NCBI RefSeq assembly: GCF_016786215.1
Contig: NZ_JADOBG010000006.1
Coordinates: forward strand, 1 to 64,000
Direction of reading: 5' to 3'
DNA from: Legionella bononiensis
GTDB lineage: Bacteria > Pseudomonadota > Gammaproteobacteria > Legionellales > Legionellaceae
Length of the DNA stretch: 64,000 nucleotides
Translations under genes and position numbers: made by a program
Notes under the pieces: generated by a model
Told to the model about the DNA's origin: nothing
Databases searched by the model: none
What the model saw: the letters and a program-made list of their open reading frames with translations, nothing else
In this document: positions 12,074 to 39,695 of the stretch, in pieces
How the letters are laid out: each line of letters starts with the position of its first letter
Numbering within the stretch: the stretch's first letter is position 1

Positions 12074-12115
12074 AGTTGCCCCATCTTTAATTTTTTGAAA
12101 AAAATATGACAACAT

Positions 12116-19812: not shown

Positions 19813-20691
19813 TCAGTTAAAACTTCCTACTAGAGCCTGAACTACCAAGTCCCAGCCATCGATGAGAATGAAGAGTAAAATTTTTACTGGCAAAGAGATG
19901 CTCATAGGCGGCATCATCATCATGCCCATGGTCATCAGAATTCCGGATACAATCAGATCAACCAGTAAAAAAGGTAAAAAAATCATAAACCCTATCTGAA
20001 AAGCGGTTTGTAATTCACTTAATATGAAAGCCGGTATGAGTTGATACAGTTTGATTTCATCTGCAGAAGCCGGTAACGGTTCTTTTGCCAGTTCTAGAAT
20101 AACCTGCATGTCTTTTTCTCTGGTTTGCTTAATCATAAATTGTTTTAATGGTATGGCCGCTCTGTTAAGCGCAGTGCTGGTGTTAATCTGCTTATTCTCA
20201 TAGGGCTGATAGGCCTCTGTATAAATCGCTTTGGCAACAGGCATCATGGTAAACAGGGTTAAAAACAGGGATAGGCTAATCAGTACGGTGTTGGGTGGTG
20301 TTTGCTGTAATCCAAGAGCGTTTCGTAGCATGGATAAAACAACAACAATGCGGGTAAAGGAAGACAGCATAATTAAAATACTGGGCGCGAGGCTTAAAAC
20401 GGTCAGAAGCGCGAAAGCCTGCAGGGCTGGTGATACATTATCTTGATCAAATTGTACGGGTCCGAATTGGGTTCCAGCCAAAGCATTACTGATAGGGAGG
20501 AATAATAAAAGAAAATAAAGAAAGTGACTAATGCTTCTGGGCAAACGATGCTCGGGTCTTTGCTCTGAGTGAATGCTTGGTGCAGCAGAAAGGGGGGAGT
20601 GCGATACAGTGTGAGCATTAACTTGGCTTGTTGATTCGGGGGACAAACCTTCAATACTGGATAGATAGTGATTATTCATGATGTGATTCAA
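19813..20691 (-). CDS. fliP: Flagellar export gate protein FliP
   Basis: 292 residues, the last gene of the flagellar operon. FliP forms the export-gate pore with FliQ and FliR. The core is canonical: LTVLSLAPSILIMLSSFTRIVVVLSMLRNALGLQQTPPN, the periplasmic loop, then IPAFILSELQTAFQIGFMIFLPFLLVDLIVSGILMTMGMMMMPP. Oddly, the usual cleaved signal sequence (SHFLYFLLLFLPISNALAG) is preceded by about 50 polar residues. A later start (a TTG near the signal sequence) would remove them but has no good ribosome binding site. The start overlaps fliO by 20 bases; an in-frame ATG at 20679 is an alternative. Confidence 0.95.
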   Translation of the reverse strand: MNHIMNNHYLSSIEGLSPESTSQVNAHTVSHSPLSAAPSIHSEQRPEHRLPRSISHFLYFLLLFLPISNALAGTQFGPVQFDQDNVSPALQAFALLTVLSLAPSILIMLSSFTRIVVVLSMLRNALGLQQTPPNTVLISLSLFLTLFTMMPVAKAIYTEAYQPYENKQINTSTALNRAAIPLKQFMIKQTREKDMQVILELAKEPLPASADEIKLYQLIPAFILSELQTAFQIGFMIFLPFLLVDLIVSGILMTMGMMMMPPMSISLPVKILLFILIDGWDLVVQALVGSFN

Positions 20692-21013
20692 TGTCCTGCA
20701 ATGGAAGTAGGGTTAAGGCATTTTGATTATCTGCTAATAAAAACTGTTGCCCTTGATAATCAATAACAAAGATTTTGGTTTTGTTATGCACTGATACCTG
20801 TTCAATGACCTTGCATTTGGGACTCGTACTCTTTGAATTTTTTGAGTATTGGGCAAGAATGAATAAAACCCCGAGCAAAACAAACAGTACCAGCACATAG
20901 GGAGACCAATGCGTATTCGTTACAAGTTCCTTTTTAAACACCACGGGTTGGTTTGCTGATAACGGATTTATCCAGGACATTAAAATAACTATTAAAAAAC
21001 GCTCCATCAACAC
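20672..21013 (-). CDS. fliO: Flagellar export chaperone FliO
   Basis: 113 residues. An N-terminal hydrophobic stretch and a second membrane helix (YVLVLFVLLGVLFILAQY) precede a short cytoplasmic domain with the FliO pattern VIEQVSVHNKTKIFVIDYQGQQFLLADNQNALTLL. FliO stabilises FliP during gate assembly. It is located between fliN and fliP as in most flagellar operons, overlapping fliN by 7 bases. Confidence 0.85.
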   Translation of the reverse strand: MLMERFLIVILMSWINPLSANQPVVFKKELVTNTHWSPYVLVLFVLLGVLFILAQYSKNSKSTSPKCKVIEQVSVHNKTKIFVIDYQGQQFLLADNQNALTLLPLQDIESHHE

Positions 21014-21309
21014 ATGACCTCTGTAATCTGGACGGCAAACTTGTCTTCATAACTCATCAATTCTCCTTTAGCGATTACCTTATCATTAAGAAGTACTTCG
21101 ACAGGTTCATTGGTTTTTTGTTCTAAATGCATGACTTGTCCGGATTTAAGTTCCCTTAACTGAGCGATGGTTACCGTTAGAGTGCCAATGCGTATGTTGC
21201 ATTGAACTTCAATGCCTCCTACCAGACCTAAATAATTTTGATTGACTGTTTGAGCCTCTGGTTGGGAATGGTGTTCAGCCAGTACTACTTTTTTTACTGT
21301 TGTATTCAT
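21007..21309 (-). CDS. fliN: FliN, SpoA-domain C-ring/sorting-platform protein
   Basis: 100 residues, nearly all a SpoA domain: VQCNIRIGTLTVTIAQLRELKSGQVMHLEQKTNEPVEVLLNDKVIAKGELMSYEDKFAVQITEV. In flagella FliN forms the bottom of the C-ring and binds FliH to dock the ATPase complex. In this operon it may act as the SctQ-like part of a sorting platform, because FliG and stators are missing. ATGA overlap with fliM. Confidence 0.93.
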   Translation of the reverse strand: MNTTVKKVVLAEHHSQPEAQTVNQNYLGLVGGIEVQCNIRIGTLTVTIAQLRELKSGQVMHLEQKTNEPVEVLLNDKVIAKGELMSYEDKFAVQITEVMC

Positions 21310-22016
21310 GATGATCCTTTTAAAATGATTGATTTGAAGTGATCGGATTGCCCCAAATCGGCACGGGCAACCAATTGGTGATTTTGTGTTAATGACATCG
21401 AAGCGCTTATTGGGTGATCCGTAGCGATTACATCTCCAACTGATAAAGTAATGAGTTGGTGCAAAGGCAGGGTGAGGGGATAGAGCTCCAGATTTAAGGC
21501 TAACCTTTGGTCTGCCAATGCTTCATCCAAAGAAACCGTTTGTGTGCCTTTGTTGTTCGGTTGAGGCAGGTTTTGATACACCCAATTGGGGTGCAGAATA
21601 ATGGTGAACTCGGTTGTACAACAAGATATCCTGAGCAGCAGGCTTGTTGAACCACGGTAAAACCAGCCGTGGGTCGAGCATGTCTCAGAATCAATCGCAC
21701 ATTCATTTACTTTCAGGAGTTGATGAATAAAAACTGTAAACAGCTCCTGACTTACGGAATTAAAACAGGGGGTGTCTTTACCAAATAAAGCCTGATTTAA
21801 AACAGTTAGATAATGTGTCTCAATACATGCCAAAGTACTCTCATTCTCCTTAATTGAATAACCTTCACCCGGTGAGTACTCTTTTGGAGGTACATGAAGA
21901 TCCATAGTTACAGGATGTAGCGTGTATAAACTGTTCCAACTCTCTAGTGCTCTGAGACATTGTCGAGAAAGTTCCTGAAGCTCAAATGCATTAATTAATC
22001 TATAGGGTTTGATCAT
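21306..22016 (-). CDS. fliM: Shortened FliM-like SpoA protein
   Basis: 236 residues versus roughly 330 for normal FliM. Identified by position (before fliN) and a C-terminal SpoA-like domain (LHQLITLSVGDVIATDHPISAS...). The N-terminal CheY-binding peptide and a recognisable GGxG FliG-binding motif are not seen. The remaining N-terminal part (residues 1-170) is divergent and has eight or so cysteines. Loss of exactly the switch interfaces fits a scaffold that docks FliN/FliH rather than a rotary switch. It overlaps flgE by ATGA. The family assignment of the N-terminal half is weak. Confidence 0.78.
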   Translation of the reverse strand: MIKPYRLINAFELQELSRQCLRALESWNSLYTLHPVTMDLHVPPKEYSPGEGYSIKENESTLACIETHYLTVLNQALFGKDTPCFNSVSQELFTVFIHQLLKVNECAIDSETCSTHGWFYRGSTSLLLRISCCTTEFTIILHPNWVYQNLPQPNNKGTQTVSLDEALADQRLALNLELYPLTLPLHQLITLSVGDVIATDHPISASMSLTQNHQLVARADLGQSDHFKSIILKGSS

Positions 22017-23305
22017 CTTGCTTCCAGATCCTCTAATAGTTGTTTATCTATATCCATTATTTGAGAACAGGCCTGAAACATTCTTTGCAAAATGACGATA
22101 TTGGCAAATTCGGTGGTGGAATCAACATTGGATGATTCGAGTTGTTTTGCTTTTATGCTGCCAAATCCGTCTTTATTAGCACGACCAATATGGATTCCTC
22201 GATCATTTTTTGCCCGAAATAAACTGTCATGAGTTTGGACCAGGGTGTGCTCCAACTCATCGAAGCGAGCCATACTTATACAAATGCCTTGTATGGTTTG
22301 GCCATTATCGTAGTTATAAGAAATCTGCCCGTTTTCATCAAAAGAAAAACCGATTTGTTTCCCTTCACCATATCCATCATTTTGATAGGTTTCAATTTGG
22401 GTGCCTTCGGGATTTTGTTTTGATTCTTTGAGTTGAACCGAACTGTCAGATCCATCCTTAAAAGTACCAAATTGCAGTTTTATTTCTTGATCGCCATTCA
22501 TTGTAAAGTGAATGGAGCAATTCTCCAGATTGGCTCCTTGGGATGTGGCATTAAAAATGATTTTCTGATCTCTTAAAACAGCAGAAATATCTGCATCATC
22601 ACAAGTCACTCCGATTAAATCCCAACTTGTTCCATTATCATTTATTGGAGGTTTTCCTTCATCTATTGTTGTATTACCTCCATTAACCAGTACAGGAGTG
22701 GATTCGAACTCCAGTTGTACCTCATGTGCTTTGCCTTGTTTATCATAAATTTTTGCAACGGAAAATTTAATGTTTTTATATTTGTTTTTAAATGGACCAG
22801 GCTGCTCTAACTCGGAGCCTGATTTTTCCAAAAGGATAAATTGACCTTTTAAAAAAATCTCATGGCTGGCTTTGCCTTGAGAACTTTTAGGCCCTTTTCC
22901 ATGAATGGGCACCAGGTTACCGGCATTATTATACCCCTGAACTTCACCTCCACTGCGTCTATCGATTAAGATGCCTTCATTATTGAATTCAAATTCCCCA
23001 TCACGAGTATAGCGTAGCTCACCACTTTTAAGCCTGAGTACAAAAAAGCCTTGCCCAACTATAGCTAAATCAGACGGGTTACTGGTTTCGAGATAATTTC
23101 CGTCACTAAAATTGGTTGCATTGCCACCGATACAAACTCCTGAACCCAGTCCTTCTTCGCCACTGCCATTACCTAATGAAGAATAAAAAACGTCATTACG
23201 TTTAAATCCAGGACTTTGCATGTTCGCCACGTTGTTAGATGTATTTTGCAAGCCATAGCTGGCGGCAAGCATTCCTGACAGGCTTGTATAGTAAGTGTTA
23301 CTCAT
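22013..23305 (-). CDS. flgE: Hook protein FlgE
   Basis: 430 residues. The N-terminal axial motif (MLAASYGLQNTSNNVANMQSPGFKR), SDLAIVGQGFFVLR and the C-terminal axial helix (SSNVDSTTEFANIVILQRMFQACSQIMDIDKQLLEDL) are those of FlgE. It should be exported through the apparatus and form the hook outside the cell. Five cysteines lie in surface and core segments (GVCIGG, VTCDD, ENCSI, GICIS, QACSQ), which is unusual because flagellar axial proteins are normally cysteine-poor. TAATG overlap with flgD. Confidence 0.94.
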   Translation of the reverse strand: MSNTYYTSLSGMLAASYGLQNTSNNVANMQSPGFKRNDVFYSSLGNGSGEEGLGSGVCIGGNATNFSDGNYLETSNPSDLAIVGQGFFVLRLKSGELRYTRDGEFEFNNEGILIDRRSGGEVQGYNNAGNLVPIHGKGPKSSQGKASHEIFLKGQFILLEKSGSELEQPGPFKNKYKNIKFSVAKIYDKQGKAHEVQLEFESTPVLVNGGNTTIDEGKPPINDNGTSWDLIGVTCDDADISAVLRDQKIIFNATSQGANLENCSIHFTMNGDQEIKLQFGTFKDGSDSSVQLKESKQNPEGTQIETYQNDGYGEGKQIGFSFDENGQISYNYDNGQTIQGICISMARFDELEHTLVQTHDSLFRAKNDRGIHIGRANKDGFGSIKAKQLESSNVDSTTEFANIVILQRMFQACSQIMDIDKQLLEDLEAR

Positions 23306-23679
23306 TATCTCTCCCGGACTTCAGTTATTTGTCCCAGCTCAACTTTGGGAACTTCCCCATTACTCATGGCAACAGTCACTAGTGGAGGTGAGTCATCATG
23401 AAACTCGATTTTGGTGACTTGTCCTTCACCCTCAATATCCTTTACCCGTACTTTTTTGCCTAATAAACCAAGACTTTGGGTTCCACTGGTCATTCCCAGT
23501 AATTGAGTCAAATGTTCATTCGTAGTCCTTGCTTCCTGAAGTGCGGAGAATTGAGCCATTTGAGCCATAAATTCACGGTTATCAACTGGCTTTAAAGGAT
23601 CCTGATAAGTTAATTCCTGCATGAATAGTTTTAGATAATCTGCTTGATTAACACCGGAGGCACTCACGGGTTCAGTCAT
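23305..23679 (-). CDS. flgD: Hook-assembly scaffold FlgD, short form
   Basis: 124 residues with the start at ATG 23679 (GGAG six bases upstream); the ATG four codons earlier is less likely. The N-terminal export/capping region is canonical (DYLKLFMQELTYQDPLKPVDNREFMAQMAQFSALQ). A small beta-rich module follows (LLGKKVRVKD...TVAMSNGEVPKVELGQITEVRE). The FnIII-like lobe that makes most FlgD proteins about 220 residues long is missing. FlgD caps the growing hook. It overlaps fliK by 8 bases. Confidence 0.9.
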   Translation of the reverse strand: MTEPVSASGVNQADYLKLFMQELTYQDPLKPVDNREFMAQMAQFSALQEARTTNEHLTQLLGMTSGTQSLGLLGKKVRVKDIEGEGQVTKIEFHDDSPPLVTVAMSNGEVPKVELGQITEVRER

Positions 23680-24331
23680 GTTGTACTCCATTAATTAGTA
23701 ACTGTTTTAAAGAAAGACCTTTATTTTTTAAATTGAGTTTTATCATGTGTTTCAGTTCAATTTGTTCTTCTTTATTCAGATCTTCAGCATAAAGGGATAT
23801 TTCGACTTCATCGTTTTGGATAAACAGGTGGTGGTTTTTGAGCGGACCCTTACAAAGATCTTTGAATTCAACCGAACTTGTATTTTCGAATTGAAGTGCA
23901 TCCGATGCCTGTATTTTTGATGCGGAATTGGATTCTGGAACAGGTGGTTGTGAATTATTCTGTTCCAGTTCAGTGAGAGCTCTCATTAATTCTGTTGAAT
24001 GCAGGATTAGACGATTATTGGGAGTCGTTTTAGAGAAATCCGTTGTTTGCTGTATGTGCTCCGTTTCAATGACTGCTTTGGGATCCAAACTAGTGCTCTG
24101 AGGCTGCTTTGTGCTTATTTCTAATACAGTCTCACCGTGCTGATTATGCTCAGGATGATGATTAAATTGCAAACTGGATTGCTGCAATTGATCTTGATGT
24201 TGCCAATAAAACTCATCTCCGCTGTTTTGTTTGGTTGGCGACTTTAACCAATCCTCAAAATCAGGTTGCGTCTTTTGATTATTCTGGACGTTTTGATTCA
24301 GTGAAGGTACAGAGTGATCGCTTATTTTCAT
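23672..24331 (-). CDS. fliK: FliK-like hook-length control protein
   Basis: 219 residues with the start at ATG 24331 (GGAAG upstream, ATGA overlap with fliJ). The first 150 residues are low-complexity, Gln/Asn/Ser/His-rich and disordered. The last 70 form a compact domain (HLFIQNDEVEISLYAEDLNKEEQIELKHMIKLNLKNKGLSLKQLLING) reminiscent of the FliK C-terminal domain. Its place between fliJ and flgD is the usual fliK slot. FliK is a molecular ruler that triggers the FlhB substrate switch. At about half the usual length it would measure a short hook. Assignment rests on position and composition. Confidence 0.72.
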   Translation of the reverse strand: MKISDHSVPSLNQNVQNNQKTQPDFEDWLKSPTKQNSGDEFYWQHQDQLQQSSLQFNHHPEHNQHGETVLEISTKQPQSTSLDPKAVIETEHIQQTTDFSKTTPNNRLILHSTELMRALTELEQNNSQPPVPESNSASKIQASDALQFENTSSVEFKDLCKGPLKNHHLFIQNDEVEISLYAEDLNKEEQIELKHMIKLNLKNKGLSLKQLLINGVQHD

Positions 24332-24744
24332 ACTGACTTCCTTTTTTGGAGCACCCATTCTTCAAGAGAGTTTTCCTGCGATTTCATTTGATGTTGCCTG
24401 GCTGCATGCTCTTCTCGTTCCATGTATTGCTCCAACATTTTGAGTTCCGTTTTGATGCGGAGTAATTTGTCCTTTAATTTGGTTTCCAATGCCTGGTGAT
24501 TTTTTAAAATCATCAATAGCTCTTCTTTTTTTTCTTGTTGCTGAGTAAGAAAATTCAATTTATTGATTTCTAGTTCTGGATTGATGCTGATTGACGTAAT
24601 ACAGGATTCATTTATTTTTTGTTCCAAGTCCTGAATTTGTTGCATCACGGTCTGGGACTCAGTTTCTGCAGCCTGTAGATGAATACTAAGCTCATTATTT
24701 TGCCAGGTTAATCGGGTCATGAGAGCCGTTAGAGATTGATTCAT
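24328..24744 (-). CDS. fliJ: FliJ-like coiled-coil export protein
   Basis: 138 residues, entirely alpha-helical coiled coil rich in Gln, Glu and Leu. It directly follows fliI with an ATGA overlap, the conserved position of FliJ, the stalk that links the FliI ATPase to FlhA. Sequence alone would not identify it, because FliJ proteins diverge strongly. Confidence 0.8.
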   Translation of the reverse strand: MNQSLTALMTRLTWQNNELSIHLQAAETESQTVMQQIQDLEQKINESCITSISINPELEINKLNFLTQQQEKKEELLMILKNHQALETKLKDKLLRIKTELKMLEQYMEREEHAARQHQMKSQENSLEEWVLQKRKSV

Positions 24745-26033
24745 TGCAGAATCTCCTTAAAGCTTTGGATGAGAGCACTGAACGATAAACTGTGTTGTTC
24801 ATCCTGGGTTAATATCTGATTTATGGAATCAATACGACTGACTGCATGATCTAATAACTTATTGTTACCAGGTTTGTAAGCGCCCAGCTCGATCAGATCC
24901 TTGTTTTGTTGATAAATACTCAGAGTAGAAATTACTTGCTTTACTATTTTATTCTCCTCGTCTGAAAGGAGTTGATTGGCCAGACGCGAAATGCTGTGCA
25001 GCACCGAGATAGCAGGGTAGTGGCCCCGTTGTGCTAATTCCCTTTTGAGAACGATATGACCATCTAACAACGCGCGCATATGATCTGCTAGTGGTTCGTT
25101 AAAATCATCACCCTCGACCAGCACTGTGTATATGGCACTGATACTTCCTTGATTTTGGAAATTCCCTGTTCGCTCTATTAATCCTGGCAACAGCGAAAAT
25201 ACACTTGGGGTATATCCTCGAGCTGTAGGAGGTTCGCCCAAACTCAAACCGATTTCTCTTTGCGCCATGGCAAAACGGGTAATGGAATCCATAAATAACA
25301 GAACGTTTTTACTTTGCTGGCAAAAATACTCTGCAAGAGTTGTGGCTGTATAAGCTGCCTGACGCCGCATTAGGGCTGGCTCATCACTGCATGCGACAAC
25401 CAGAATTGATTTTTTAAGGTTGTCCTTATTTAAATGATGATGAATAAACTCATTAACTTCTCTTCCGCGTTCACCAATTAAAGCAATAATGTTGATGTCA
25501 CTAGTACTCTGTTGTGCAATAGTTGCCAATAAGGTCGTTTTTCCCACGCCGCTCCCGGAAAACACACCAATTCGCTGTCCTTTTCCCATGGGAAGCAAAC
25601 TGTCTATAGCATGAATTCCTGTATTAAGGCGTTCTGTAATTGGTTCGCGGATGAATGGATTTATTTTTTTGTTTTGAGTTGTTATGTTTTTTGTAAAGGT
25701 GCATGGAATGGGGTGATCGATGGGGGCCGCAAAAGCGTCGACTACATGCCCAAGCAGCGAAGGGGACGCATTAATTGTTACTGGATAACCAGTCGCTCGA
25801 ACTCGATAACCCATACGAATTGGGACAGTATCATAGGGCATCAGGTATACTTTACCTTCTTCAAAGCCAACCACTTCTGCTTTAGTAATTATTTTATGGT
25901 TTTGATCCAATAGTTCACAAACTTCACCAATAAAAGCATGTGGTGGTCCATTGGCTACCAGTTTTAAACCAACACTTTGTTCAATTTCCCCTAATCGTTC
26001 TACAGATTGTAATCGGTTAATCCAGGAGTGCAT
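24741..26033 (-). CDS. fliI: Flagellar export ATPase FliI
   Basis: 430 residues with the start at ATG 26033 (GGGAG five bases upstream); another ATG lies four codons before. Walker A is GSGVGKTT (residues 160-167), and Walker B is in LLFMDSITRFAMAQREIGLSLGEPPTARGYTPSVFSLLPGLIERTG, a signature of FliI/SctN ATPases. It unfolds or releases export substrates from chaperones. It overlaps fliH by 17 bases. All catalytic motifs are intact, so the secretion function is expected to be alive. Confidence 0.97.
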   Translation of the reverse strand: MHSWINRLQSVERLGEIEQSVGLKLVANGPPHAFIGEVCELLDQNHKIITKAEVVGFEEGKVYLMPYDTVPIRMGYRVRATGYPVTINASPSLLGHVVDAFAAPIDHPIPCTFTKNITTQNKKINPFIREPITERLNTGIHAIDSLLPMGKGQRIGVFSGSGVGKTTLLATIAQQSTSDINIIALIGERGREVNEFIHHHLNKDNLKKSILVVACSDEPALMRRQAAYTATTLAEYFCQQSKNVLLFMDSITRFAMAQREIGLSLGEPPTARGYTPSVFSLLPGLIERTGNFQNQGSISAIYTVLVEGDDFNEPLADHMRALLDGHIVLKRELAQRGHYPAISVLHSISRLANQLLSDEENKIVKQVISTLSIYQQNKDLIELGAYKPGNNKLLDHAVSRIDSINQILTQDEQHSLSFSALIQSFKEILQ

Positions 26034-26664
26034 GTTGTCTCCCATGTTTCATTTGAACGAGCATTTCTTTTAATCGTTCAAGACGTGTTTCCAGGCTGGC
26101 ATCAAACACACCATGTTCCGTTTTTATGACACAACCACCAGGAGCAAGACTGAGATCCGTTTTGATCAGTAATCCATTGAGATGAGCAGTTTCCAGTTTG
26201 ATATTGGAATGGTGTAATGTTTTGATTTCATCAGGATGCAAGTGTAACTCGATGCTTTGTTTGTTATTTAATTGGCTTAATATTTGATTGATTTGCTGGT
26301 GGAGCGCTTCGGGTTTTTTTTGCTGCTCTATGAAATATTCCTGAGTAATTAATAAAATGATATCGGCAATTTCATCGTGTAATTCCAGTCGATTTTGCTC
26401 TACAGCTTGAGGAATTGCTGACAACAGAATCTGCAGTTCTTGCTTTGATTGAGCCAATTGTTGTTCTGCAAGGAGCAGTCCATCTTTTTGTCCCTCTATG
26501 AAACCTTGTTGAAAGGCCTGAGCTCGAAGCTCTTCCAAGTCGGCTTCATTAGTTTGGAGTGTCAGTTCAGGTTTCTGGTCAATATCATCAGAAGTCATTA
26601 CAGGTTTTGTACCTATAGTGACCGTTTCATGACTGATCAATGCCTGATGAATTAATTTAGCCAT
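26017..26664 (-). CDS. fliH: FliH, ATPase regulator/stator
   Basis: 215 residues. A coiled-coil middle (RAQAFQQGFIEGQKDGLLLAEQQLAQSKQELQ) with FliH-type GxxxG-like spacing is followed by the C-terminal FliI-binding domain (ELHLHPDEIKTL, LSLAPGGCVIKTEHGVFDASLETRLERL). FliH dimers hold FliI and connect it to FliN. It overlaps the preceding orf by 8 bases. Confidence 0.9.
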   Translation of the reverse strand: MAKLIHQALISHETVTIGTKPVMTSDDIDQKPELTLQTNEADLEELRAQAFQQGFIEGQKDGLLLAEQQLAQSKQELQILLSAIPQAVEQNRLELHDEIADIILLITQEYFIEQQKKPEALHQQINQILSQLNNKQSIELHLHPDEIKTLHHSNIKLETAHLNGLLIKTDLSLAPGGCVIKTEHGVFDASLETRLERLKEMLVQMKHGRQHALLD

Positions 26665-27094
26665 AATTCATCACCAGTTGATCATCAAAATTAAGTTGGT
26701 TTTGCCATTGCCTGAATACACTGGACTTGGTATCGGGTTTCAGTGTTTTGACCTGGTCATTCATTATTTGTTGAATTTCATTACCATTATTTAGGGATTG
26801 AATAAATTGCTCTCTCCATGGAAATTGGCCCTGATCGAGGATGATGGCGATGTATAACGAATCCTGATGCTTCAGATCATGACAGAGTGCGGGTAACTTT
26901 AAATCTGGATTGACTGTGACAGAGTCCTCATAGGCTAAAGTCCGAAATCGTCGTGCTTTGGCGAGTAATTTATTTCCTTCCAATAGCTCAAACTGTTTTT
27001 GTTGATTAGCCGTTAGTTGATTCAGGATCCATTTTTGATCGGACTTTGGCAAAGCAGCTATTTTTAATAATAATTTTTTAAGTTCTTTATTCAT
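26657..27094 (-). CDS. Unidentified protein in the FliG slot
   Basis: 145 residues between fliF and fliH, overlapping both by 8 bases, exactly where fliG normally sits. It is far shorter than FliG (about 330) and shows no FliG armadillo motifs or charged torque helix. The N-terminus is helical (LPKSDQKWILNQLTANQQKQFELLEGNKLLAKARRF), and the rest is mixed. In virulence type III systems the same position (between SctJ and SctL) is held by SctK, a small sorting-platform adaptor, so a SctK-like role is an attractive guess. It could also be a highly eroded FliG. No family is recognised with confidence. Confidence 0.72.
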   Translation of the reverse strand: MNKELKKLLLKIAALPKSDQKWILNQLTANQQKQFELLEGNKLLAKARRFRTLAYEDSVTVNPDLKLPALCHDLKHQDSLYIAIILDQGQFPWREQFIQSLNNGNEIQQIMNDQVKTLKPDTKSSVFRQWQNQLNFDDQLVMNYG

Positions 27095-28391: not shown

Positions 28392-28392
28392 T

Positions 28393-29102: not shown

Positions 29103-29440
29103 TATTGATTTGTTCCTTGTAATGCCAGTTTCATGATTGCCAGTTTTTGATTTAAGCCTTTGATCAAGGCACGATAATGAGTCATGTTCTGAACGTTTAA
29201 TGCCATTTGCTCATCGATAGATGATTGGTGATCGCTCAATTGATAAAAAGGCTTGATAGTGGACAGTTCGTCCGTTCCGCTAATGAAGTGAGTCTCGTTT
29301 AATTGTTGTTCAAAATTCACTTCCATAGTCTGGTAATTAGCGCTGTTGCTATTGGCAATATTATTGGCTATGGCAGTCTGGCGCATCAGAGATGCATCCA
29401 GTGCCATGCTTACCAATTCTATAGTCGAGTCTGAGTTCAT
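29102..29440 (-). CDS. flgB: Proximal rod protein FlgB
   Basis: 112 residues starting at ATG 29440 (AAGGA seven bases upstream), ten bases after flgI; an ATG eleven codons earlier would overlap flgI. Axial motif ASLMRQTAIANNIANSNSANYQ, then VNFEQQL and the C-terminal helix (NMTHYRALIKGLNQKLAIMKLALQG). First rod subunit on the FliE base. Confidence 0.94.
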   Translation of the reverse strand: MNSDSTIELVSMALDASLMRQTAIANNIANSNSANYQTMEVNFEQQLNETHFISGTDELSTIKPFYQLSDHQSSIDEQMALNVQNMTHYRALIKGLNQKLAIMKLALQGTNQ

Positions 29441-29450
29441 ATTAAGTTCC

Positions 29451-30566
29451 TTATTGAATAACCAGTTCAGCATGTAATGCTCCAGCCCTTTGCAGACTTT
29501 CTAAAATTGCAATGATGTCTCTGGTTGAAGTCTGTACCTTGGTTAAGGCAGTAATTAAGTCCGCAACTGTTGCTCCCTGGTCCAGGTTTACTGTATTTGC
29601 CGATGCTTCTTTAACATGGATATTCGTTGAAGGAGTTACAGCTGTATGGACCTGTCTTCCCATGTTTTGGATTAGAGTGGGTTGAGATACATTAAATTCA
29701 GTGGCAATCGCTATTTGCAGATTGCCATGAGATATAGTGACCGCATCAATTTTGACATCGGCTCCTGCTACAACGACACCTGTTCGTTCATTGACTACGA
29801 CTGTGGGTAGATGATCCGGAATAATTTCGATGTGTTCCAGTTGACTCACAAAACGAATAAAGCGCTTTCTGTAGGGCAGGGGAGGATGTATCTCAATATC
29901 CTGGGCAGAACGTGCCAGTGCTGTATTTTTGCCAAATTTTTTGTTAATGGCCGTTTCTATATGATCTGCGGTAGTAAAGTCAGGATGATTTAAAATGAGA
30001 TGAAGGTCTCCTGTTTTATCGACTACATCATTATAAAGTGTTTTTTCAACAACCGCCCCACCGGGGATTAAGCCGGTAGTTGGATGATTTTTTTGAATCA
30101 CATTGCCATAGAGGTCGTATTTAAATCCACCTATGGAAATTGGACCTTGAGCCAGTGCATAAACCCGATTATCAGCTCCTTTAAGAGGAGCCACCAATAA
30201 GGTGCCACCCAGTAGGCTTTTCGCATCGCCCAGCGATGCGACATTGATGTCAATTTTATCGCCTTGATGAGCAAAGGAGGGAAGATTGGCGGTAATTATT
30301 ACGGTGGCGGTATTTCTGCTGTTAATCTCGTTTGGATTGATATTGACACCAAAAGTCTGTAATAAATTGGAAATCGCCTGTGTTGTATCTTTATTCCGTC
30401 TGGAGTCTCCAGAGCCAGCTAATCCTATGACGAGACCATAACCACTTATCGGGTTCTCCTGTAAACCCGAAAGACGAGCCAGGGATTTCAGGTGGACAGC
30501 GGAATATACATCCTGATGTACAGTTATAGAGATGAAGAGCATCAGCAGGGTTATCAATTTATTCAT
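29451..30566 (-). CDS. flgI: P-ring protein FlgI
   Basis: 371 residues with a signal peptide (residues 1-22). Canonical FlgI sequence: [30 protein letters not shown], then [26 protein letters not shown]-type text, and the C-terminal [38 protein letters not shown]. It forms the peptidoglycan-level bushing around the rod. TGATG overlap with flgH. Confidence 0.97.
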   Translation of the reverse strand: [371 protein letters not shown]

Positions 30567-31138
30567 CAGACTAGCCCTACAAACGAGAGAATTTTATAGA
30601 AATAATTCCGTGTCTGAGAGTCTGAAACGGAACCATTTCCTGCATAGGTGATATGAGCGTCTGCCAGACGGGTAGATAAGAGTGTATTTTGAGGACTGAT
30701 ATCTTCGGGTCTAACTATGCCGCTTAACAGGATGTGTTGCTGTTCACCATTAATGGTAATGGTCTGCATGCCTTCTACAAGATACGTATTATTAGGAAAT
30801 ATTTGTTTAATCTGCACAGTTAACGAGGCTTTAATTTTACCATTGCGTCCTGTTTTGGCTGCTGTTTTTCCTTTTCCCTTCAGACCAAATTCTACTTCAT
30901 GATTATTCTTGTTATACCCAACTTCCAGAGCTGATTTTATCTCTTTTCCTGATGAAAGGTCGGCACTGGTCTGAGCATTGGATGTTTCCAGAACAATAAC
31001 CGTAAGTATATCCCCAGGTAATGACGCAACACGATCGGCAATTAAGGGGCGATAGACTTCTTCATTGAATAAATTGACAGCCCAGCTCATTTGCGGCGAA
31101 AAATAAACGATGAGAAAAAGAATGATTAATTGGTTCAT
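30566..31138 (-). CDS. flgH: L-ring protein FlgH without lipobox
   Basis: 190 residues. The ring domain is clear (ASLPGDILTVIVLETSNAQTSADLSSG, LVEGMQTITINGEQQHILLSGIVRPEDISPQNTLLSTRLADAHITYAGNGSVSD). FlgH is normally a lipoprotein, but here the signal sequence ends SPQMSWAVN with no cysteine, so it would be cut by signal peptidase I and not lipidated. It forms the outer-membrane ring. ATGA overlap with flgA. Confidence 0.94.
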   Translation of the reverse strand: MNQLIILFLIVYFSPQMSWAVNLFNEEVYRPLIADRVASLPGDILTVIVLETSNAQTSADLSSGKEIKSALEVGYNKNNHEVEFGLKGKGKTAAKTGRNGKIKASLTVQIKQIFPNNTYLVEGMQTITINGEQQHILLSGIVRPEDISPQNTLLSTRLADAHITYAGNGSVSDSQTRNYFYKILSFVGLV

Positions 31139-32031
31139 GATGAAACCTCTGCTTGATGTGGCGCGGTAACTCTCGCTACAAAATATTTATTGGACAGGGG
31201 ATTCTTCATGCGAATTAACTGACCGGTATATCCATCATGTTCTGCTATAGCTCTGGATAGTAACGAAATGCTTCGATTCATTACGGTGACCTGAACCCAT
31301 TGTCCTTTGATAATTTGTGGTGTGGGCGCTACATCACTTTCTATTAGAATATGGTTCTTAGTAATGGATTTTTTTAGCCAAATCGCCTGTGGCAGTTTGG
31401 TAAGCGGTTTATCCCTTAATCCAGCGATATTTCGTTTTTTTAGAATAAAATCAGTTTTATGCAACTGGGTTCGGTTGCTGATCGGGTATTTGGCCACCAG
31501 TACGGATTGAAATGCGCTAATCTTGAACCAGATGGGAATAGTATGTTTACCATGTGACAGACGAACACAGATCTGTTTAGCTGGTGGGTATGCTTCCGGT
31601 ATTTCAATATGAAACTCTGATAATGGAAATTCACTGTCTTTAATTGTTCCCTTGGGACTTAGTGTCATGGAATCATACCTGCTTTTAAATTGATGTTCTA
31701 AAGCAATTTGTGCCTTATGACGTAATTCATTACCTGTAGTCTGGATCAGCCTTTGAACCAGGGCAGTACTTTTCCCTTTCCATTGATAATCTAATGAGCC
31801 TGTTTTTTTCGTTACCCAATCGATAATTTGTTTTTTACTCATGATTTCACCGGGTTTCGGATGACTGTCCAATGGCAATTTCATTAAATCACTCCTGTCA
31901 CTACTGATATCAACCAGATCACCCAGGTACTGCGCATGAGGTGTAATGTGCTTTTGAAAACGCATCACTGCCTCTGCATGGGCCTGTACAAAAAATACAA
32001 AAGGAATCATCAGATTAATCACGAATTTCAT
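31135..32031 (-). CDS. flgA: P-ring assembly chaperone FlgA
   Basis: 298 residues with an N-terminal signal peptide (to about AHA). The C-terminal SAF/FlgA domain is recognisable (VAKYPISNRTQLHKTDFILKKRNIAGL ... IKGQWVQVTVMNRSISLLSRAIAEHDGYTGQLIRMKNPLSNKYFVARV). It is a periplasmic chaperone for FlgI. Its start overlaps the end of flgG by 17 bases. Placing flgA between flgG and flgH differs from the common separate flgA locus. Confidence 0.92.
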   Translation of the reverse strand: MKFVINLMIPFVFFVQAHAEAVMRFQKHITPHAQYLGDLVDISSDRSDLMKLPLDSHPKPGEIMSKKQIIDWVTKKTGSLDYQWKGKSTALVQRLIQTTGNELRHKAQIALEHQFKSRYDSMTLSPKGTIKDSEFPLSEFHIEIPEAYPPAKQICVRLSHGKHTIPIWFKISAFQSVLVAKYPISNRTQLHKTDFILKKRNIAGLRDKPLTKLPQAIWLKKSITKNHILIESDVAPTPQIIKGQWVQVTVMNRSISLLSRAIAEHDGYTGQLIRMKNPLSNKYFVARVTAPHQAEVSS

Positions 32032-32791
32032 TAGTCAATTTTTCCAGTTCATCAGCAATTTGTACTGCTTTTGCATTTAATTGGTACACACGTTGCGCCA
32101 TAGTTAACTGCATTAGAGAATTAACCATGTCGACATTAGATCCTTCGATTTGGTTTTGTGCTAAAGATCCAAGTCCACTACTGCCGGGATTGTCAGTCAG
32201 CGGTTCACCTGACTCATCGGTTGGCAGGTAAATTCCAGCGCCGATTGGGTTCAATGTTTCAGGATTGATAAATTTGGCAAGTTGAATTGTGCCCAGTAAT
32301 TGGGGTTCGGTTTCGTCACTCAGTGTGACTTCGACATCACCATTGGGTTGTATGGTTATCTTGGTAAAATCATCAGGAACTTGAATGTTATCTGCTAATC
32401 TTAACCCATCCTGGGTGGTAAGATAGCGTTCTGAATCAATACTTAACGTAGAGTTTCGTGTATAAGCAATAGTACCGTCGGTATTAAGGATTTGAAAAAA
32501 ACCCACCCCGTTGATCGCTACATCATTCCAGTTATTTGTGGATTTTAACGGCCCCGTAGTAAAATCTTTTCCTGATTTATAAACAGCAGTGCCTAGCCCA
32601 AGTTTTATAGAGCTTTGGTTGTTGAACAGTGATTGTTCTCCATTGATATTCTGATAGAGTACGTCCTCGAATGTTATTTTAGTGGCTTTGTAATTGGCAG
32701 TATTTAGATTAGCCAAATCATTGGCAATTTTATCTATATAAAACTCTTCGGATTTTAGACCACTTGCGGCAATTGAAAGCGCGTCAGACAT
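32015..32791 (-). CDS. flgG: Distal rod protein FlgG
   Basis: 258 residues. Axial N-terminus (MSDALSIAASGLKSEEFYIDKIANDLANLNTANYK), AINGVGFFQI, and C-terminus with LAQNQIEGSNVDMVNSLMQLTMAQRVYQLNAKAVQIADE, the FlgG pattern. It overlaps flgF by 8 bases. Confidence 0.95.
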   Translation of the reverse strand: MSDALSIAASGLKSEEFYIDKIANDLANLNTANYKATKITFEDVLYQNINGEQSLFNNQSSIKLGLGTAVYKSGKDFTTGPLKSTNNWNDVAINGVGFFQILNTDGTIAYTRNSTLSIDSERYLTTQDGLRLADNIQVPDDFTKITIQPNGDVEVTLSDETEPQLLGTIQLAKFINPETLNPIGAGIYLPTDESGEPLTDNPGSSGLGSLAQNQIEGSNVDMVNSLMQLTMAQRVYQLNAKAVQIADELEKLTNEIRD

Positions 32792-33497
32792 TTCCTTCTC
32801 CTAACTGATTAATTGCGGTTGAAAGCAGGTTATCCGCTGTTCGCATGACTCGTTGACTGGCTTCAAAGTGACGTGAGGTTTTTATCATGTCCATCATTTC
32901 GTCAATGGATTTAACGTTTGATTGTTCAATGAATCCCTGTAATACACGTGTAGTACCATCGGATGGATTGGGCGACTCATTGGTTTGATAGAGACCATTG
33001 CCAACATAGTCAAGTAACTGAGGTTGTTCAAATCGAACAATATTAAGTTGATCTACTTTATGATGATCAATATAAAGAGCGCCCTGAGTATCCACAGTAA
33101 AGGAGCTGTCTTCTACTTTTATGGTACCTCCTTTTCCCAGTACCGTTTCACCTGTAGCAGTACATAATTCGCCTTGCTTATTGATTTGAAAATCACCGCG
33201 TCGCGTGTAGAAAATACCTTGATCGCTTTGAACCTGAAAATAGCTGTCTCCAGTCAAAGCTAAATCATTCAGGTTATGGGTTTGAGTTAAAGTACCCTGG
33301 ATGTTTATTTGCGCTCTTTGTACTTGCTGAATTGAATTATTGATTTGGGGTTCTAACTGTTCATCAAAACCTGCACTTTCTACCAGCTGTCTTTTAAATC
33401 CTGGCGTATTCATATTCGCCACATTTTGACTGATCGATTGCAGTTTTAATTGATCAAATTCCATAGCGAATTGTGTTGCCGTTATAGCATCGAACAT
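32784..33497 (-). CDS. flgF: Proximal rod protein FlgF
   Basis: 237 residues. Axial motif QLKLQSISQNVANMNTPGFKR, then LALTGDSYFQVQSDQGIFYTRRGDFQINKQGEL and the terminal helix IEQSNVKSIDEMMDMIKTSRHFEASQRVMRTADNLLSTAINQLG. Position immediately before flgG and length support FlgF. Nine bases after flhA. Confidence 0.9.
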   Translation of the reverse strand: MFDAITATQFAMEFDQLKLQSISQNVANMNTPGFKRQLVESAGFDEQLEPQINNSIQQVQRAQINIQGTLTQTHNLNDLALTGDSYFQVQSDQGIFYTRRGDFQINKQGELCTATGETVLGKGGTIKVEDSSFTVDTQGALYIDHHKVDQLNIVRFEQPQLLDYVGNGLYQTNESPNPSDGTTRVLQGFIEQSNVKSIDEMMDMIKTSRHFEASQRVMRTADNLLSTAINQLGEGNV

Positions 33498-33506
33498 CTT
33501 ATTTCC

Positions 33507-35510
33507 TTATTGTACAACCCCAAAGGATTCCACTTGAACATTGACCGGAATTTCATTCATTGCCAGCACTGTTAAATGAGGGATCACTCTTTGGGTTAAT
33601 TGTTTTAAATGTCGTCTTAATTGCGATGAGCAAAGCAGGATAGGGCGTTTACGTTCGCCCAGCATTTGCTCTACCTGATTAGCCAATGAGGTAATCAGAC
33701 GTTCAGTTAAGCCGGGCTCCAATGAAAAAAACTCTTTATTGAGGATGTTTTGATTGAGTTTTTGTTCTAAGGTGGCTTCGAGTGTCAGTACATGCAAACT
33801 TTCTTGATTGACGAGCAGTTTTTGACAAATTGGAACGGCTAAACCAGACCGTACCAATTCCGTCAGTTGTATGGGGTCGGGTATTTTTTTTGCGTGCTCT
33901 AATAAAAGTTCCAATATTTGAGTTAAATAACGGATGGAGACTTTTTCTTTAAGTAAGTTTTGCAGTATGCGTTGAACATGGCCTAAGGGCAAAAGAGAAG
34001 GAATTAATTCATCACTTAATGCTTTAACTCCTGGTTGTACTAATAATTGTTCTGTTTCTTCTCGAGTCAATAATTCAGCAATATGTGTTTGTATGGTTTC
34101 ATTGAGATGCGTCGTTAGTACCATGAGTGGTTCACAGACGGTGAATCCGTTATCAAGAGCATCTTGTTTATTTTGATGATCAATCCAGATGGCTGGAAGT
34201 CCATAACTGGGATCACGTACTTCAATTCCGGCTGGTAAAAGAGTATTCTTGCTGCGTGTTGAAACTATTGCCAGCGCTTTATCCAAATGCAGGGGATTCG
34301 TTCCGGTGTTATTGCCCTGGATGCCAATGGAATACAAGGGAAAACCCAGTTTTTTATCTGTTTTGATTTTAACTTCAGGTAAAACAAAACCTAAATCAAA
34401 AGCAATTCGTTCTCTAATTATTTGAATGGATTCAAGCAAGTGTTTTTCATAGTGAATTAATTGACTATAAAGTTCTTTATTAAGATTTATTTCAACAGGA
34501 TGGATGCGAATTTTTTCATAGAGATTCTCTTCTGTCTCTACTATGCCCTCTTTCTTTTTTGTTTTAATGGCAAACCAGGTACTGCCAGCAAAAAGGCTCA
34601 AAATGAATAGTACAGGAACAGCAGGGATACCTTTTACAAATAATAAGCCAGCTAAACTACAACAAACCATAATTAAACTTTTAGGATAGGAGCTTATTTG
34701 TTTTGCGACTTCACTGCCTAATTGCGCATCGGTAGCGGCACGTGTGACTATAATTCCAGTAGCTGTTGAAATAATTAAAGCCGGAATTTGAGTAACCAAT
34801 CCATCACCGACCGTAAGAAGAGTGTACGTTTGAATTGATTCGGACAAACTTAAGCCTTTCTGGATAAGGCCTATTGCAAATCCTCCAATGATGTCCACGA
34901 GAATAATCAGGATCCCGGCTATTGCATCACCTTTTACAAATTTACTGGCTCCATCCATAGCACCATAAAAGTTCGCTTCTTTTTCAATTTGTGATCTTCT
35001 GGCTTTGGCATCACTTTGAGAAATACTGCCCATATTCAAATCGGCATCAATACTCATTTGTTTTCCGGGCATACTATCCAGGGTAAATCGCGCAGCTACT
35101 TCCGCTACACGCTGGGCTCCATTGGTGACGACAATAAATTGCACAATAATGAGGATTAGGAAAACGACCAAACCCATTACATAATTGCCATGAATGACAT
35201 AATGTCCCATTGCCTGAATTACTTTTCCTGCATCACCATCAGATAAAATCAGACGGGTGGCCGAGATATTGAGCGCTAACCGAAACAGAGTGGAGATGAG
35301 TAACAGAGCAGGAAATGTAGAAAAGCTTAATGGTTTATCTGTGTAGAAGGTGAGCAGTAAAATGGTTAATGCCCAGCTGAAATTGACTATGAGAAGAAGA
35401 TCCAGCAAACCTGACGGAATAGGGATGAACAGGATAAATAGAATTCCGGTAGCGAATGCTATCATGATCAGTTCACTGCTGTTATTCAAAAAATTTGATT
35501 TACTGATCAT
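33507..35510 (-). CDS. flhA: Export gate protein FlhA
   Basis: 667 residues. Eight N-terminal membrane helices include the FHIPEP signature region (RLALNISATRLIL) and VVFLILIIVQFIVVTNGAQRVAEVAARFTLDSMPGKQMSIDADLNMG. A cytoplasmic C-terminal domain (residues about 320-667) forms the nonameric docking ring for chaperone-substrate complexes. Nothing critical appears lost. It overlaps flhB by 11 bases. Confidence 0.97.
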   Translation of the reverse strand: MISKSNFLNNSSELIMIAFATGILFILFIPIPSGLLDLLLIVNFSWALTILLLTFYTDKPLSFSTFPALLLISTLFRLALNISATRLILSDGDAGKVIQAMGHYVIHGNYVMGLVVFLILIIVQFIVVTNGAQRVAEVAARFTLDSMPGKQMSIDADLNMGSISQSDAKARRSQIEKEANFYGAMDGASKFVKGDAIAGILIILVDIIGGFAIGLIQKGLSLSESIQTYTLLTVGDGLVTQIPALIISTATGIIVTRAATDAQLGSEVAKQISSYPKSLIMVCCSLAGLLFVKGIPAVPVLFILSLFAGSTWFAIKTKKKEGIVETEENLYEKIRIHPVEINLNKELYSQLIHYEKHLLESIQIIRERIAFDLGFVLPEVKIKTDKKLGFPLYSIGIQGNNTGTNPLHLDKALAIVSTRSKNTLLPAGIEVRDPSYGLPAIWIDHQNKQDALDNGFTVCEPLMVLTTHLNETIQTHIAELLTREETEQLLVQPGVKALSDELIPSLLPLGHVQRILQNLLKEKVSIRYLTQILELLLEHAKKIPDPIQLTELVRSGLAVPICQKLLVNQESLHVLTLEATLEQKLNQNILNKEFFSLEPGLTERLITSLANQVEQMLGERKRPILLCSSQLRRHLKQLTQRVIPHLTVLAMNEIPVNVQVESFGVVQ

Positions 35511-36558
35511 GCGTTTTTCCTTGCTCGTAGAGTTCTCTAAAGATACTGGCCATGGCAGGATATAAATCTCTTGAGATCCATTGATTCAGTTCTATCGTTT
35601 GGTACAACATCCGAGCTAACGCTTTGTTTTCTATTATGGGTACGTTGAACTGTCTAGCTAATTTTTTTACTTCTTTGACCATTTCACCTTTTGCCTTACA
35701 GACTACCTTTGGCGCGGGCATGGAACCGCGTTCATATTGAAGCGCGATAGCGATATGGGTGGGATTGGTTACCACCACATCCGCTTTTTTTACTTCATTT
35801 AAAGAAGCGGTTTTCTGACGGAGTTGATGTTGTAACTGTCTTATTTTATTTTTGATTTTAGGATCGCCTTCCCTTTGCTTGTATTCATCCTTGACCTCCT
35901 GCTTGCTCATACGATTGTCTTTGTTGAACTTCCAGCGGGTGAATAGTTTGTCAAATAAAGCAATGATTAAAAGCAGAATAACTAATTGAACCATGAGTTT
36001 TAAAAGAAATCCCATCATTAACTCGGGATCCTGAGAGGGGCTGGTTATTATTAAGTGGAGAATATTGGATAATTGAACCTTGATGATAAAAAATAATAGA
36101 AGGAAGGTTAATCCTAATTTAAAGGTACTTTTTATTGCTTCAACGCATGTTTTGACTGAGAACAGTCGTTTGAATCCTTGTATCACGTTAAGACGTTTAA
36201 AATCCGGGATTAATGGTACTGTGGACCAGATTATTCCTGTCTGAGCCAGGGTACACAGTATTATTGTCAATCCGCTAGCCAGAGCAAATGGCAGCCACAA
36301 GTTGATCAATTGGGACAAAATGAATTGGTGAAGATGCATGACATTGTCACTATTGAATTGAAGATGTGCCGCATAATGGAGTATATGTCGAAGCATTGAT
36401 TTAATTTCGAGTAATTGTTTAGGCCATAAAGCGGTGATCATTCCAGCCATTACAAGCAGAGTAGTACATGTAGTTAATTCAATACTTTTACTGACCTGTC
36501 CTTTTTCTTTGGCCTTTTGCAATTTGTATGGCGTGGGCTGTTCAGTTTTTTCACTCAT
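35500..36558 (-). CDS. flhB: Export switch protein FlhB
   Basis: 352 residues with the start at ATG 36558, in ATGA overlap with fliR (an earlier ATG would overlap fliR by 34 bases). Begins MSEKTEQPTPYKLQKAKEKGQVSKS, has four membrane helices, and carries the autocleavage site NPTH (Asn265-Pro266) in VVVTNPTHIAIALQYERGS. Autocleavage switches export from rod/hook to late substrates, so the retained motif implies a late substrate class, although none is encoded in this operon. Confidence 0.97.
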   Translation of the reverse strand: MSEKTEQPTPYKLQKAKEKGQVSKSIELTTCTTLLVMAGMITALWPKQLLEIKSMLRHILHYAAHLQFNSDNVMHLHQFILSQLINLWLPFALASGLTIILCTLAQTGIIWSTVPLIPDFKRLNVIQGFKRLFSVKTCVEAIKSTFKLGLTFLLLFFIIKVQLSNILHLIITSPSQDPELMMGFLLKLMVQLVILLLIIALFDKLFTRWKFNKDNRMSKQEVKDEYKQREGDPKIKNKIRQLQHQLRQKTASLNEVKKADVVVTNPTHIAIALQYERGSMPAPKVVCKAKGEMVKEVKKLARQFNVPIIENKALARMLYQTIELNQWISRDLYPAMASIFRELYEQGKTHDQ

Positions 36559-37304
36559 GACATGAGTTCCTGCCAAGTTTGAAAACATCGTTCAAACACC
36601 CTATTCGATATTGGGTAAATGAAGCCCAGCATCATGGCCAATAAAAATAAACCGAGACAAATTTTAAGAGGCAGGATCAGGAAATAGGTATTTATTTGGG
36701 GAATGTTGCGGGTGATAAGTCCACCGAATAAATCTACAGCTAATAATGCCAGGATGATTGGGCTGGCTATCATGAAGCCAACTGTAAACATAAAACCAAA
36801 CTGTTTGATAATGGGGGTGAATCCTGCAAAGAGTGCAAGGGTTCCTGGTGGAATGATGATAAAGGAATAAGATAAACCTTTAAACAACCAAAGATGACCG
36901 TCCATACCAAAGAAGAATAAAACCGCTAACATAGTTAATAATCGACTGGATATCGATTCCTGGTTGTGTTCGGCAGGGTTAAATATCGCTAACGAGTTTA
37001 ATCCTGTTTCATTATCAATTAACTGTCCTGCGATTTGAAATACTGCAAAAGCGGCAAATAAACCGGTAGCAAGTATCAATCCGTTGGCAAACTCTGCCAG
37101 ACCACCTAATAGAATTCCTGTGTTATCGAGCTGCACCTGTTGCGATACGTTAAAAGTCAGTAGACAACTTAAAGCAAATACCAACATTAATCTGATCATG
37201 ATGGGGAGTTGATGTATTGCCTGAACAGGGGTAAACAATAAGACTGTACCGAGGCGAATCGCGATAAAAAATAAATGGATTAACCAGGTAATGGAGAGCG
37301 TCAT
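36555..37304 (-). CDS. fliR: Export gate protein FliR
   Basis: 249 residues with six hydrophobic segments and FliR-type text (TWLIHLFFIAIRLGTVLLFTPVQ, GLILATGLFAAFAVFQIAGQLIDNETGL). With FliP and FliQ it forms the pore. ATGA overlap with fliQ. Confidence 0.95.
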   Translation of the reverse strand: MTLSITWLIHLFFIAIRLGTVLLFTPVQAIHQLPIMIRLMLVFALSCLLTFNVSQQVQLDNTGILLGGLAEFANGLILATGLFAAFAVFQIAGQLIDNETGLNSLAIFNPAEHNQESISSRLLTMLAVLFFFGMDGHLWLFKGLSYSFIIIPPGTLALFAGFTPIIKQFGFMFTVGFMIASPIILALLAVDLFGGLITRNIPQINTYFLILPLKICLGLFLLAMMLGFIYPISNRVFERCFQTWQELMS

Positions 37305-37573
37305 GATTTAATTATTCCTGGAATACTAACAAATATTCCCTGAGCAAACTCAATCAGGGTATGCAGCATCCACTCCCCGCAAAGCATGAGCATCAGCACT
37401 ACTGCTAATATTTTGGGTATAAAACTTAATGTGGAGTCTTGTATTTGAGTTACTACTTGAAGAATTGAGACGACTAAACCGCTAATCAGGGCAATGAGAA
37501 TTATTGGTGCTGCAATGAGCAGGCTATGCCATAGTAATTGTTTGCTTAAATAAATTGCCAGATCGTTAGACAT
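37301..37573 (-). CDS. fliQ: Export gate protein FliQ
   Basis: 90 residues, two membrane helices, with the family sequence LLIAAPIILIALISGLVVSILQVVTQIQDSTLSFIPKI. First gene of the 24-gene operon. The ribosome binding site is weak (GGAAG just before ATG). Confidence 0.96.
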   Translation of the reverse strand: MSNDLAIYLSKQLLWHSLLIAAPIILIALISGLVVSILQVVTQIQDSTLSFIPKILAVVLMLMLCGEWMLHTLIEFAQGIFVSIPGIIKS

Positions 37574-37870: not shown

Positions 37871-37878
37871 TCATAGAT

Positions 37879-39510: not shown

Positions 39511-39695
39511 TAAACACTAATAATATGGGATAGTCAGGGTAACGCTGAGGACTATACAAAACTTTAAGGCCATTACCGACTATACTTTTATTGTTCGAGG
39601 TTAGGTAGCAATCTGAATAATCATGTTGGTTCTGTTCATTAAGCTGAGATGAGTATTCGGTTACATTATCTTTTTAGTCAAAAGGTTGGGCAGAG

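Follow-up and report, generated by a model that had tools for sequence, protein, structure and literature searches.

An operon of Legionella bononiensis likely to encode a non-rotating, flagellum-derived exporter of giant RHS proteins

The window analyzed here is a 64,000-nucleotide stretch of Legionella bononiensis DNA (assembly GCF_016786215.1, contig NZ_JADOBG010000006.1, positions 1 to 64,000), which sits on contig C20 of a 4.21-Mb genome in 23 contigs. The minus strand of positions 19813-37573 holds 24 co-directional open reading frames (ORFs) that form a flagellar operon, in which neighbors either overlap by 1 to 34 bases or are separated by at most 9 bases. Judging from sequence comparisons, we consider it likely that this operon builds a basal body that does not rotate, lacks a filament, and carries a rod, P and L rings, and a hook, and that would serve as a type III exporter of giant RHS toxins. 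A wider proposal, to which we give even odds, is that such operons represent a third class of type III machine, which has a FliG without the torque domain, is spread partly by plasmids, and exports single RHS toxins of 3,000-13,000 residues through the hook, mainly against bacteria.

Carriers of the operon nearly always encode giant repeat proteins with interchangeable ends; thus, the machine is probably a dedicated giant-toxin exporter. In the mechanism that we propose, the common N terminus of the giants would act as the export signal, and the giant would be threaded unfolded through FliPQR/FlhAB, the rod, and the hook, after which its C-terminal domain would harm neighboring bacteria. A shortened FliG would join FliF to FliM/FliN, giving an export platform that stators could not turn. 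The giants are the probable cargo, and their export is what we infer.

The operon and the giant RHS proteins track each other

The common N terminus of the giants (M-V-A-I-x-S-G-N-G-L-G-L...G-Q...Y-V-N-x-A-T-G-N-L) was captured in a 13-row alignment, A1, which contains no Legionella sequence. A1 matched 32 of 33 carriers (genomes or records); sequences from 12 of these carriers had gone into A1, and among the independent carriers the count was 20 of 21. A frame of more than 3000 amino acids lay behind the match in 30 of the 32, the other two (G063 and G068) having at most 1198 and 106 amino acids. Among 45 Legionella genomes, the operon FlhA was found in 14, a strong giant N terminus (at least 67 bits) in 13, and both in 12 (Fisher p 3.9e-8, uncorrected for relatedness), with G027 (24 bits) counted as lacking a giant. 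Two genomes had the operon only (G034 and G036), one had the giant only (G023, which is also without operon FlgI), and 30 had neither. A scan of 370 genomes of the class, each at least 90% complete and L. bononiensis included, gave the same picture at E-value thresholds of 1e-8 and 1e-140: the operon FlhA (at least 670 bits; next 517) was present in four genomes and a strong giant (at least 69 bits) in the same four (p 1.3e-9).

We also compared the positions of the two elements in 28 of the 33 carriers, excluding G069-G073, which had no fliP position. Of the 28 genomes or records, 14 had the giant start no more than 25 kb from the operon, namely 14 of 22 outside Legionella and none of the six Legionella; in seven of these non-Legionella cases, the start was 0.6-3 kb beyond fliP. 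For W03, the distance was taken from the FlhA rather than the FliP coordinate, and the giant is within 25 kb either way. On the Undibacterium plasmid, it is the end of the giant, not its start, that lies ~3 kb from fliQ.

Some observations weigh against this link. Six genomes of the class had weaker N-terminal matches in front of giant ORFs and no FlhA match, and five of these six giants, when read, carried the same kind of N-terminal signature (L222-L226; genomes of 1.5-2.3 Mb). Counting all ten giant-bearing genomes, the co-occurrence remained at p 2.7e-7. We therefore rejected the idea that the N terminus is exclusive to operon carriers, and its presence in genomes without FlhA means that it is by itself no proof of using this machine. 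Together with the lack of linkage in the six Legionella examined, these six genomes favor an alternative that we regard as possible but doubtful, in which the operon forms a hook-like structure on the cell surface, used to adhere or to sense surfaces, while the giants leave by another route and merely share its ecology or regulation. The adjacency outside Legionella and the co-occurrence in both the genus and class scans speak for the exporter instead, as do two features of the L. bononiensis giant: no PAAR domain was found in it by Pfam, and its N terminus, inspected by eye, is unlike a Sec signal.

A search for a common sigma-28 or sigma-54 promoter upstream of the operon and the giants yielded nothing convincing in 56 upstream stretches. 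The lowest values (an Oleiagrimonas giant, p 0.01; a sigma-54-like site at the L. bononiensis partner gene, p 0.02) were those expected by chance. In the literature, covered mainly through open-access papers without preprints or one key Lysobacter paper, we found none linking such systems to giant RHS proteins.

The giants resemble polymorphic toxins

A1 matched the L. bononiensis genome once, on contig C15, at an ORF of 3741 amino acids with 28 RHS stretches, a DUF6531 and a LysM domain, and a C-terminal SLT lytic transglycosylase domain. The other two giant bodies scanned had 27 (Dyella) and 13 (Grimontia) RHS stretches. Giant ORFs lie beyond fliP in many non-Legionella loci, measuring 3133-6386 amino acids in stretches that were joined, and the plasmid giants reach ~4900 (Burkholderia) and ~12950 (Undibacterium) amino acids. 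Outside Legionella, an ORF of 190-260 amino acids is also often found beyond fliP; sigma-70 domains were detected in three of three scanned, and the one from Dyella is FliA/WhiG-like, although under the curated cut-off.

The ends of the giants vary on a conserved body. The L. bononiensis and L. worsleiensis giants are 64-90% identical in 17 windows of 200 amino acids and then fall to 34% and 21%, while the SLT end is common to the L. bononiensis and L. moravica proteins (78%). Two giants of a single Microbulbifer genome show no difference over their first 3600 amino acids and have different ends. With their repeats and a variable C-terminal end on a conserved body, the giants fit the definition of RHS polymorphic toxins and are predicted to be toxins. 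After the L. bononiensis giant, there is a 227-amino acid ORF without a Pfam match; its product, which seems by eye to bear a signal peptide, could be a periplasmic immunity protein. In 12 of the 13 Legionella loci inspected, the gene immediately before the giant encodes an Ig-like, secreted-looking protein of 459-588 amino acids (L201:9856-11526 and its counterparts; L213 is the one without it), a possible partner of the giant.

Among 16 C-terminal ends scanned, six carry peptidoglycan-cleaving domains (three SLT, two Pesticin, one glucosaminidase), two carry pre-toxin TG, and eight have no recognized enzymatic or pre-toxin domain. The six cleaving ends, taken with the absence of FlgJ from the operon, would also agree with a machine that exports the giants to make way for the rod through the wall of the producing cell rather than to kill. 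Since the ends are of several unrelated kinds, and since a distinct ORF whose product seems to bear a signal peptide comes after the L. bononiensis giant, we find this improbable.

The operon encodes a basal body without filament or motor

A first-pass annotation of the stretch had described a 24-gene flagellar operon, and its gene list proved correct. Pfam names 20 of the 24 ORFs; the other four had no Pfam match and are named by position alone. The genes, in operon order, are as follows.

37301..37573, minus: fliQ, export gate, first gene of the operon (Pfam Bac_export_3, E 1e-26)
36555..37304, minus: fliR, export gate (Bac_export_1, E 8e-47)
35500..36588, minus: flhB, export switch (Bac_export_2, E 1e-107; NPTH motif read in the sequence)
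33507..35510, minus: flhA, operon type ("FlhA2"; FHIPEP, E 7e-226)
32784..33497, minus: flgF, rod (rod/hook domains)
32015..32791, minus: flgG, rod (rod/hook domains)
31135..32031, minus: flgA, P-ring chaperone (ChapFlgA, E 6e-18)
30566..31138, minus: flgH, L-ring (E 5e-40)
29451..30566, minus: flgI, P-ring (E 2e-117)
29102..29473, minus: flgB-like rod candidate, 123 amino acids (no Pfam match; precedes flgC; annotated as flgB in Undibacterium)
28683..29102, minus: flgC, rod (rod domains)
28393..28686, minus: fliE (E 2e-21)
27087..28391, minus: fliF, MS ring, 434 amino acids, ending by eye ~28 residues past the second membrane helix (YscJ_FliF, E 1e-59)
26657..27094, minus: FliG-slot protein, 145 amino acids, probable FliG N-terminal and middle domains
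26017..26664, minus: fliH (E 2e-16)
24741..26045, minus: fliI, ATPase (E 3e-87; Walker A GSGVGKT read in the sequence)
24328..24744, minus: fliJ-like candidate, 138 amino acids (position only; no family match)
23672..24358, minus: fliK-like ruler candidate, 228 amino acids (position only; no family match)
23305..23691, minus: flgD, hook cap, 128 amino acids (FlgD, E 2e-16)
22013..23305, minus: flgE, hook (FlgE/F/G domains)
21306..22016, minus: fliM-like, 236 amino acids, recognized only in its C-terminal FliMN domain (FliMN_C, E 1e-8; weak NCBIfam matches to FliM and SctQ)
21007..21309, minus: fliN (E 8e-19)
20672..21013, minus: fliO (E 6e-6)
19813..20691, minus: fliP, last gene of the operon (E 4e-78)

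Thus, the rod, P/L ring, and hook genes are present by Pfam, and the core set of a flagellar-type type III secretion system (T3SS) in the broad sense (FlhA, FlhB, FliP, FliQ, FliR, FliI, FliH, and FliF) is complete. Among the 24 ORFs, there was no match to flagellin, FliD, FlgK, FlgL, FlgJ, stator, FliS, FlgM, FliA, or FlhF/G families.

A shortened protein occupies the FliG slot

FliG had been reported as absent, which holds insofar as the operon encodes no whole FliG; the 145-amino acid slot ORF is, however, on weak evidence, probably a fragment of it, putatively comprising the N-terminal and middle domains, and FliG is also encoded on contig C17. In the slot alignment A3 (28 of 42 loci, the window, and 10 database proteins), the proteins measure 113-165 amino acids in all 39 rows, with one weak FliG_C match among them (E 0.044). 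A3 omits loci where the start of the slot ORF is ambiguous in GC-rich DNA, one duplicate, and the plasmid loci. Proteins of this size are too short to have room for the torque (C-terminal) domain in addition to the other two. When the alignment was searched against 5.8 billion proteins, 20 proteins were found, none of which had a Pfam domain.

The operon defines a clade shared with distant bacteria

FlhA of the window is 97% identical to that of L. quateirensis and 94% to that of L. moravica. The gene order fliQ-R-flhB-A-flgF-G-A-H-I-(B)-C-fliE-F-X-fliH-I recurs in 42 loci having flhA, fliF, and fliI, with flgA, flgB, fliH, and other small or fast-evolving genes falling under detection in many of the 42 rows; the downstream half (J to fliP) was observed in locus stretches retrieved separately. 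The carriers include Legionella, Kangiella, Dyella, Microbulbifer, Lysobacter, Xanthomonas arboricola, Pseudoalteromonas, Catenovulum, Grimontia, and others, and the same order is found on plasmids of Burkholderia ubonensis, Undibacterium (where fliH is located elsewhere and flgI is split), and Variovorax. Ten phage records also matched the operon FlhA, with 29-40% identity for the five among the matches listed.

In a tree of 89 FlhA sequences, built by a quick method and with several long branches flagged, 48 operon-type proteins formed one clade (SH-aLRT 100), apart from the other 41, which include the canonical FlhA of Legionella. By this tree and its own gene order, the operon family is a separate clade of systems in beta- and gammaproteobacteria. 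The first-pass view of a flagellum-derived, non-motile secretion or surface structure fits the tests made. Its comparison with the hook-basal bodies of endosymbionts is weakened, as the family is a distinct clade rather than the reduced flagellum of one lineage.

A close published parallel is the flagellar T3SS of Lysobacter enzymogenes; here and below, we follow the excerpts available of the papers cited. In the non-flagellated strain OH11, flagellin and fliG are reported absent, as in our operon (PMC7277350, PMC9927559). FlhA of L. enzymogenes shares 83% identity with the Lysobacter operon copy, ~48% with FlhA of the window, and 39% with the canonical Legionella FlhA; by these values it is of the operon type, the comparison being at species level with the OH11 sequence not singled out. 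The system is reported to export heterologous flagellin in a manner dependent on flhB and fliI, and among operon-type systems such activity is reported for this one only (PMC7277350); secretion of FlgD and antifungal toxins is mentioned as well (PMC9927559). Both papers present the Lysobacter genes as what is left of a lost flagellum, with effects on twitching and antifungal activity (PMC7277350, PMC9927559), whereas the operon family is a clade of its own whose members can occur beside complete flagella. The twitching effects raise the alternative that the operon acts chiefly in regulation, the role claimed in Lysobacter, in which twitching by type IV pili is affected by FlhA, FlhB, FliI, and FliR (PMC7277350). 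We consider this reading unlikely, because it leaves the ring, rod, and hook genes and the giants unexplained, and because Lysobacter fliP and fliQ mutants are described as twitching normally in the same excerpt (PMC7277350).

The operon is a second system beside the normal flagellum

Elsewhere in the L. bononiensis genome, we found FliG (PF01706) on C17, flagellin on C15 (PF00669, E 3e-48), and another FlhA on C17 that is 40% identical to the operon FlhA; a further PF00669 match, weaker and 411 amino acids long, may be FlgL. The presence of these genes on other contigs identifies the operon as a second system, and the objection that the missing parts might lie elsewhere without a second set of genes does not apply. 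In the 45 Legionella genomes, 13 of the 14 with operon-type FlhA also have canonical FlhA (in pieces in G015), and 10 have no FlhA match.

The existence of this operon in Legionella is already published: it was described as a "putative second flagellar system" (PFS2) of L. fallonii and L. micdadei, having a basal body, secretion system, and hook but no flaA or fliD, and was noted in L. worsleiensis, L. quateirensis, and others by unpublished BLAST (PMC5655016). By description, PFS2 and the window operon are the same. That account, in the part available, leaves the function open (PMC5655016), and the FliG-slot analysis, the wider family, and above all the link to giant RHS cargo are additions made here.

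One could imagine that the operon forms a second motile flagellum, which borrows from the canonical one what it lacks, namely a filament, stators, and FliG. Flagellin was matched in 16 of 25 carrier genomes, including that of L. bononiensis, and FliG in the same 16, as borrowing would require. Neither was matched (PF00669, PF01706) in the other nine, which nevertheless keep the operon; the Kangiella and Lysobacter genomes examined are carriers of this kind. These 25 are L. bononiensis and 24 genomes reached through the loci, chosen by the analyst, with completeness not given. On this evidence and the small size of the FliG-slot proteins, the borrowing reading is largely refuted, and we rejected it as very unlikely.

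The operon is under purifying selection

The ratio of nonsynonymous to synonymous substitutions (dN/dS; Nei-Gojobori) was 0.026-0.35 relative to L. moravica in 23 of the 24 genes, fliO being excluded, and 0.014-0.28 relative to L. worsleiensis, where dS is often saturated. Thus, the operon is under purifying selection, in agreement with the earlier proposal that it is functional rather than decaying. Defects exist in individual carriers: operon flhA contains stops in G015, where the giant frame at the match is only 705 amino acids (draft errors are possible), and in G034, where no giant was found. The joint defects of G015 also agree with the link between operon and giant. In G007, both matched pieces of operon flhA lie within one open frame of 712 amino acids. 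A decaying flagellar relic, to which these stops and the split flgI of the Undibacterium plasmid would point, was rejected on the dN/dS values and is the least probable reading of all, the gene order also being shared by distant families and plasmids.

Relation to other machines and implications

The operon shares with the canonical flagellum a homologous export gate, ATPase, MS ring, rod, P/L rings, and hook, but is without filament, junction, stator, whole FliG, FlgJ, and chemotaxis genes and has its own gene order and FlhA clade. The machine would act like an injectisome in exporting effectors without rotating; unlike an injectisome, it has the flagellar rod, P/L rings, and hook, and none of the 24 ORFs gave a Pfam match to a secretin or needle family. 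The giants are alike to the RHS polymorphic toxins of type VI secretion in the RHS body, variable C-terminal domain, and small following gene, and differ in that no PAAR was found in the L. bononiensis giant. RHS toxins of type VI secretion are smaller than the giants and have another N terminus. A survey of 74 Legionella strains, as excerpted, reports no non-flagellar T3SS, and type VI secretion systems in three strains (PMC5348487). Flag-2 of Enterobacterales is likewise a second flagellar locus suspected of secretion, and one Flag-2 locus holds a 1556-amino acid Rhs gene; unlike our operon, it keeps a flagellin, LafA, among its 39 conserved proteins (PMC6993521).

If the exporter reading is true, it would give a function to the "partial flagellar systems" of Legionella and Lysobacter hitherto read as remnants, and giant RHS toxins would have an extra delivery route. 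With its shortened FliG and short FliM, the family would also be a natural test of what flagellar export needs once rotation is gone. How flagella became secretion machines could be tested in carriers without their own flagellin or FliG, such as the Kangiella and Lysobacter genomes covered here.

Neighboring sequences in the window

Upstream of the operon, an intergenic array at 37868-39592 consists of three 192-nucleotide repeats and nine 28-nucleotide palindrome-like units (CCCTTCTCCCTTTAATAAGGGAGAAGGG), mostly at 90-nucleotide spacing. Just beyond fliP, positions 16478-19483 encode a 1001-amino acid protein combining ankyrin repeats with a RasGEF domain, which looks like a host-directed effector and which we take to be, perhaps, a substrate of Dot/Icm. 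This gene adjoins the operon in L. moravica, L. worsleiensis (two copies), and L. quateirensis. Because L. maceachernii and L. nautarum do not have it at this place, we rejected it as a general cargo and treated it as a mere neighbor. Past the RasGEF gene of L. quateirensis (L140/L151), the opposite strand carries a 4710-amino acid ORF, not seen there in the window, whose start is unlike that of the RHS cargo family. The window further contains a 1350-amino acid ORF at 8063-12115, with no Pfam match at E 0.001, and an ankyrin-rich protein of 1240 amino acids at 45958-49680.

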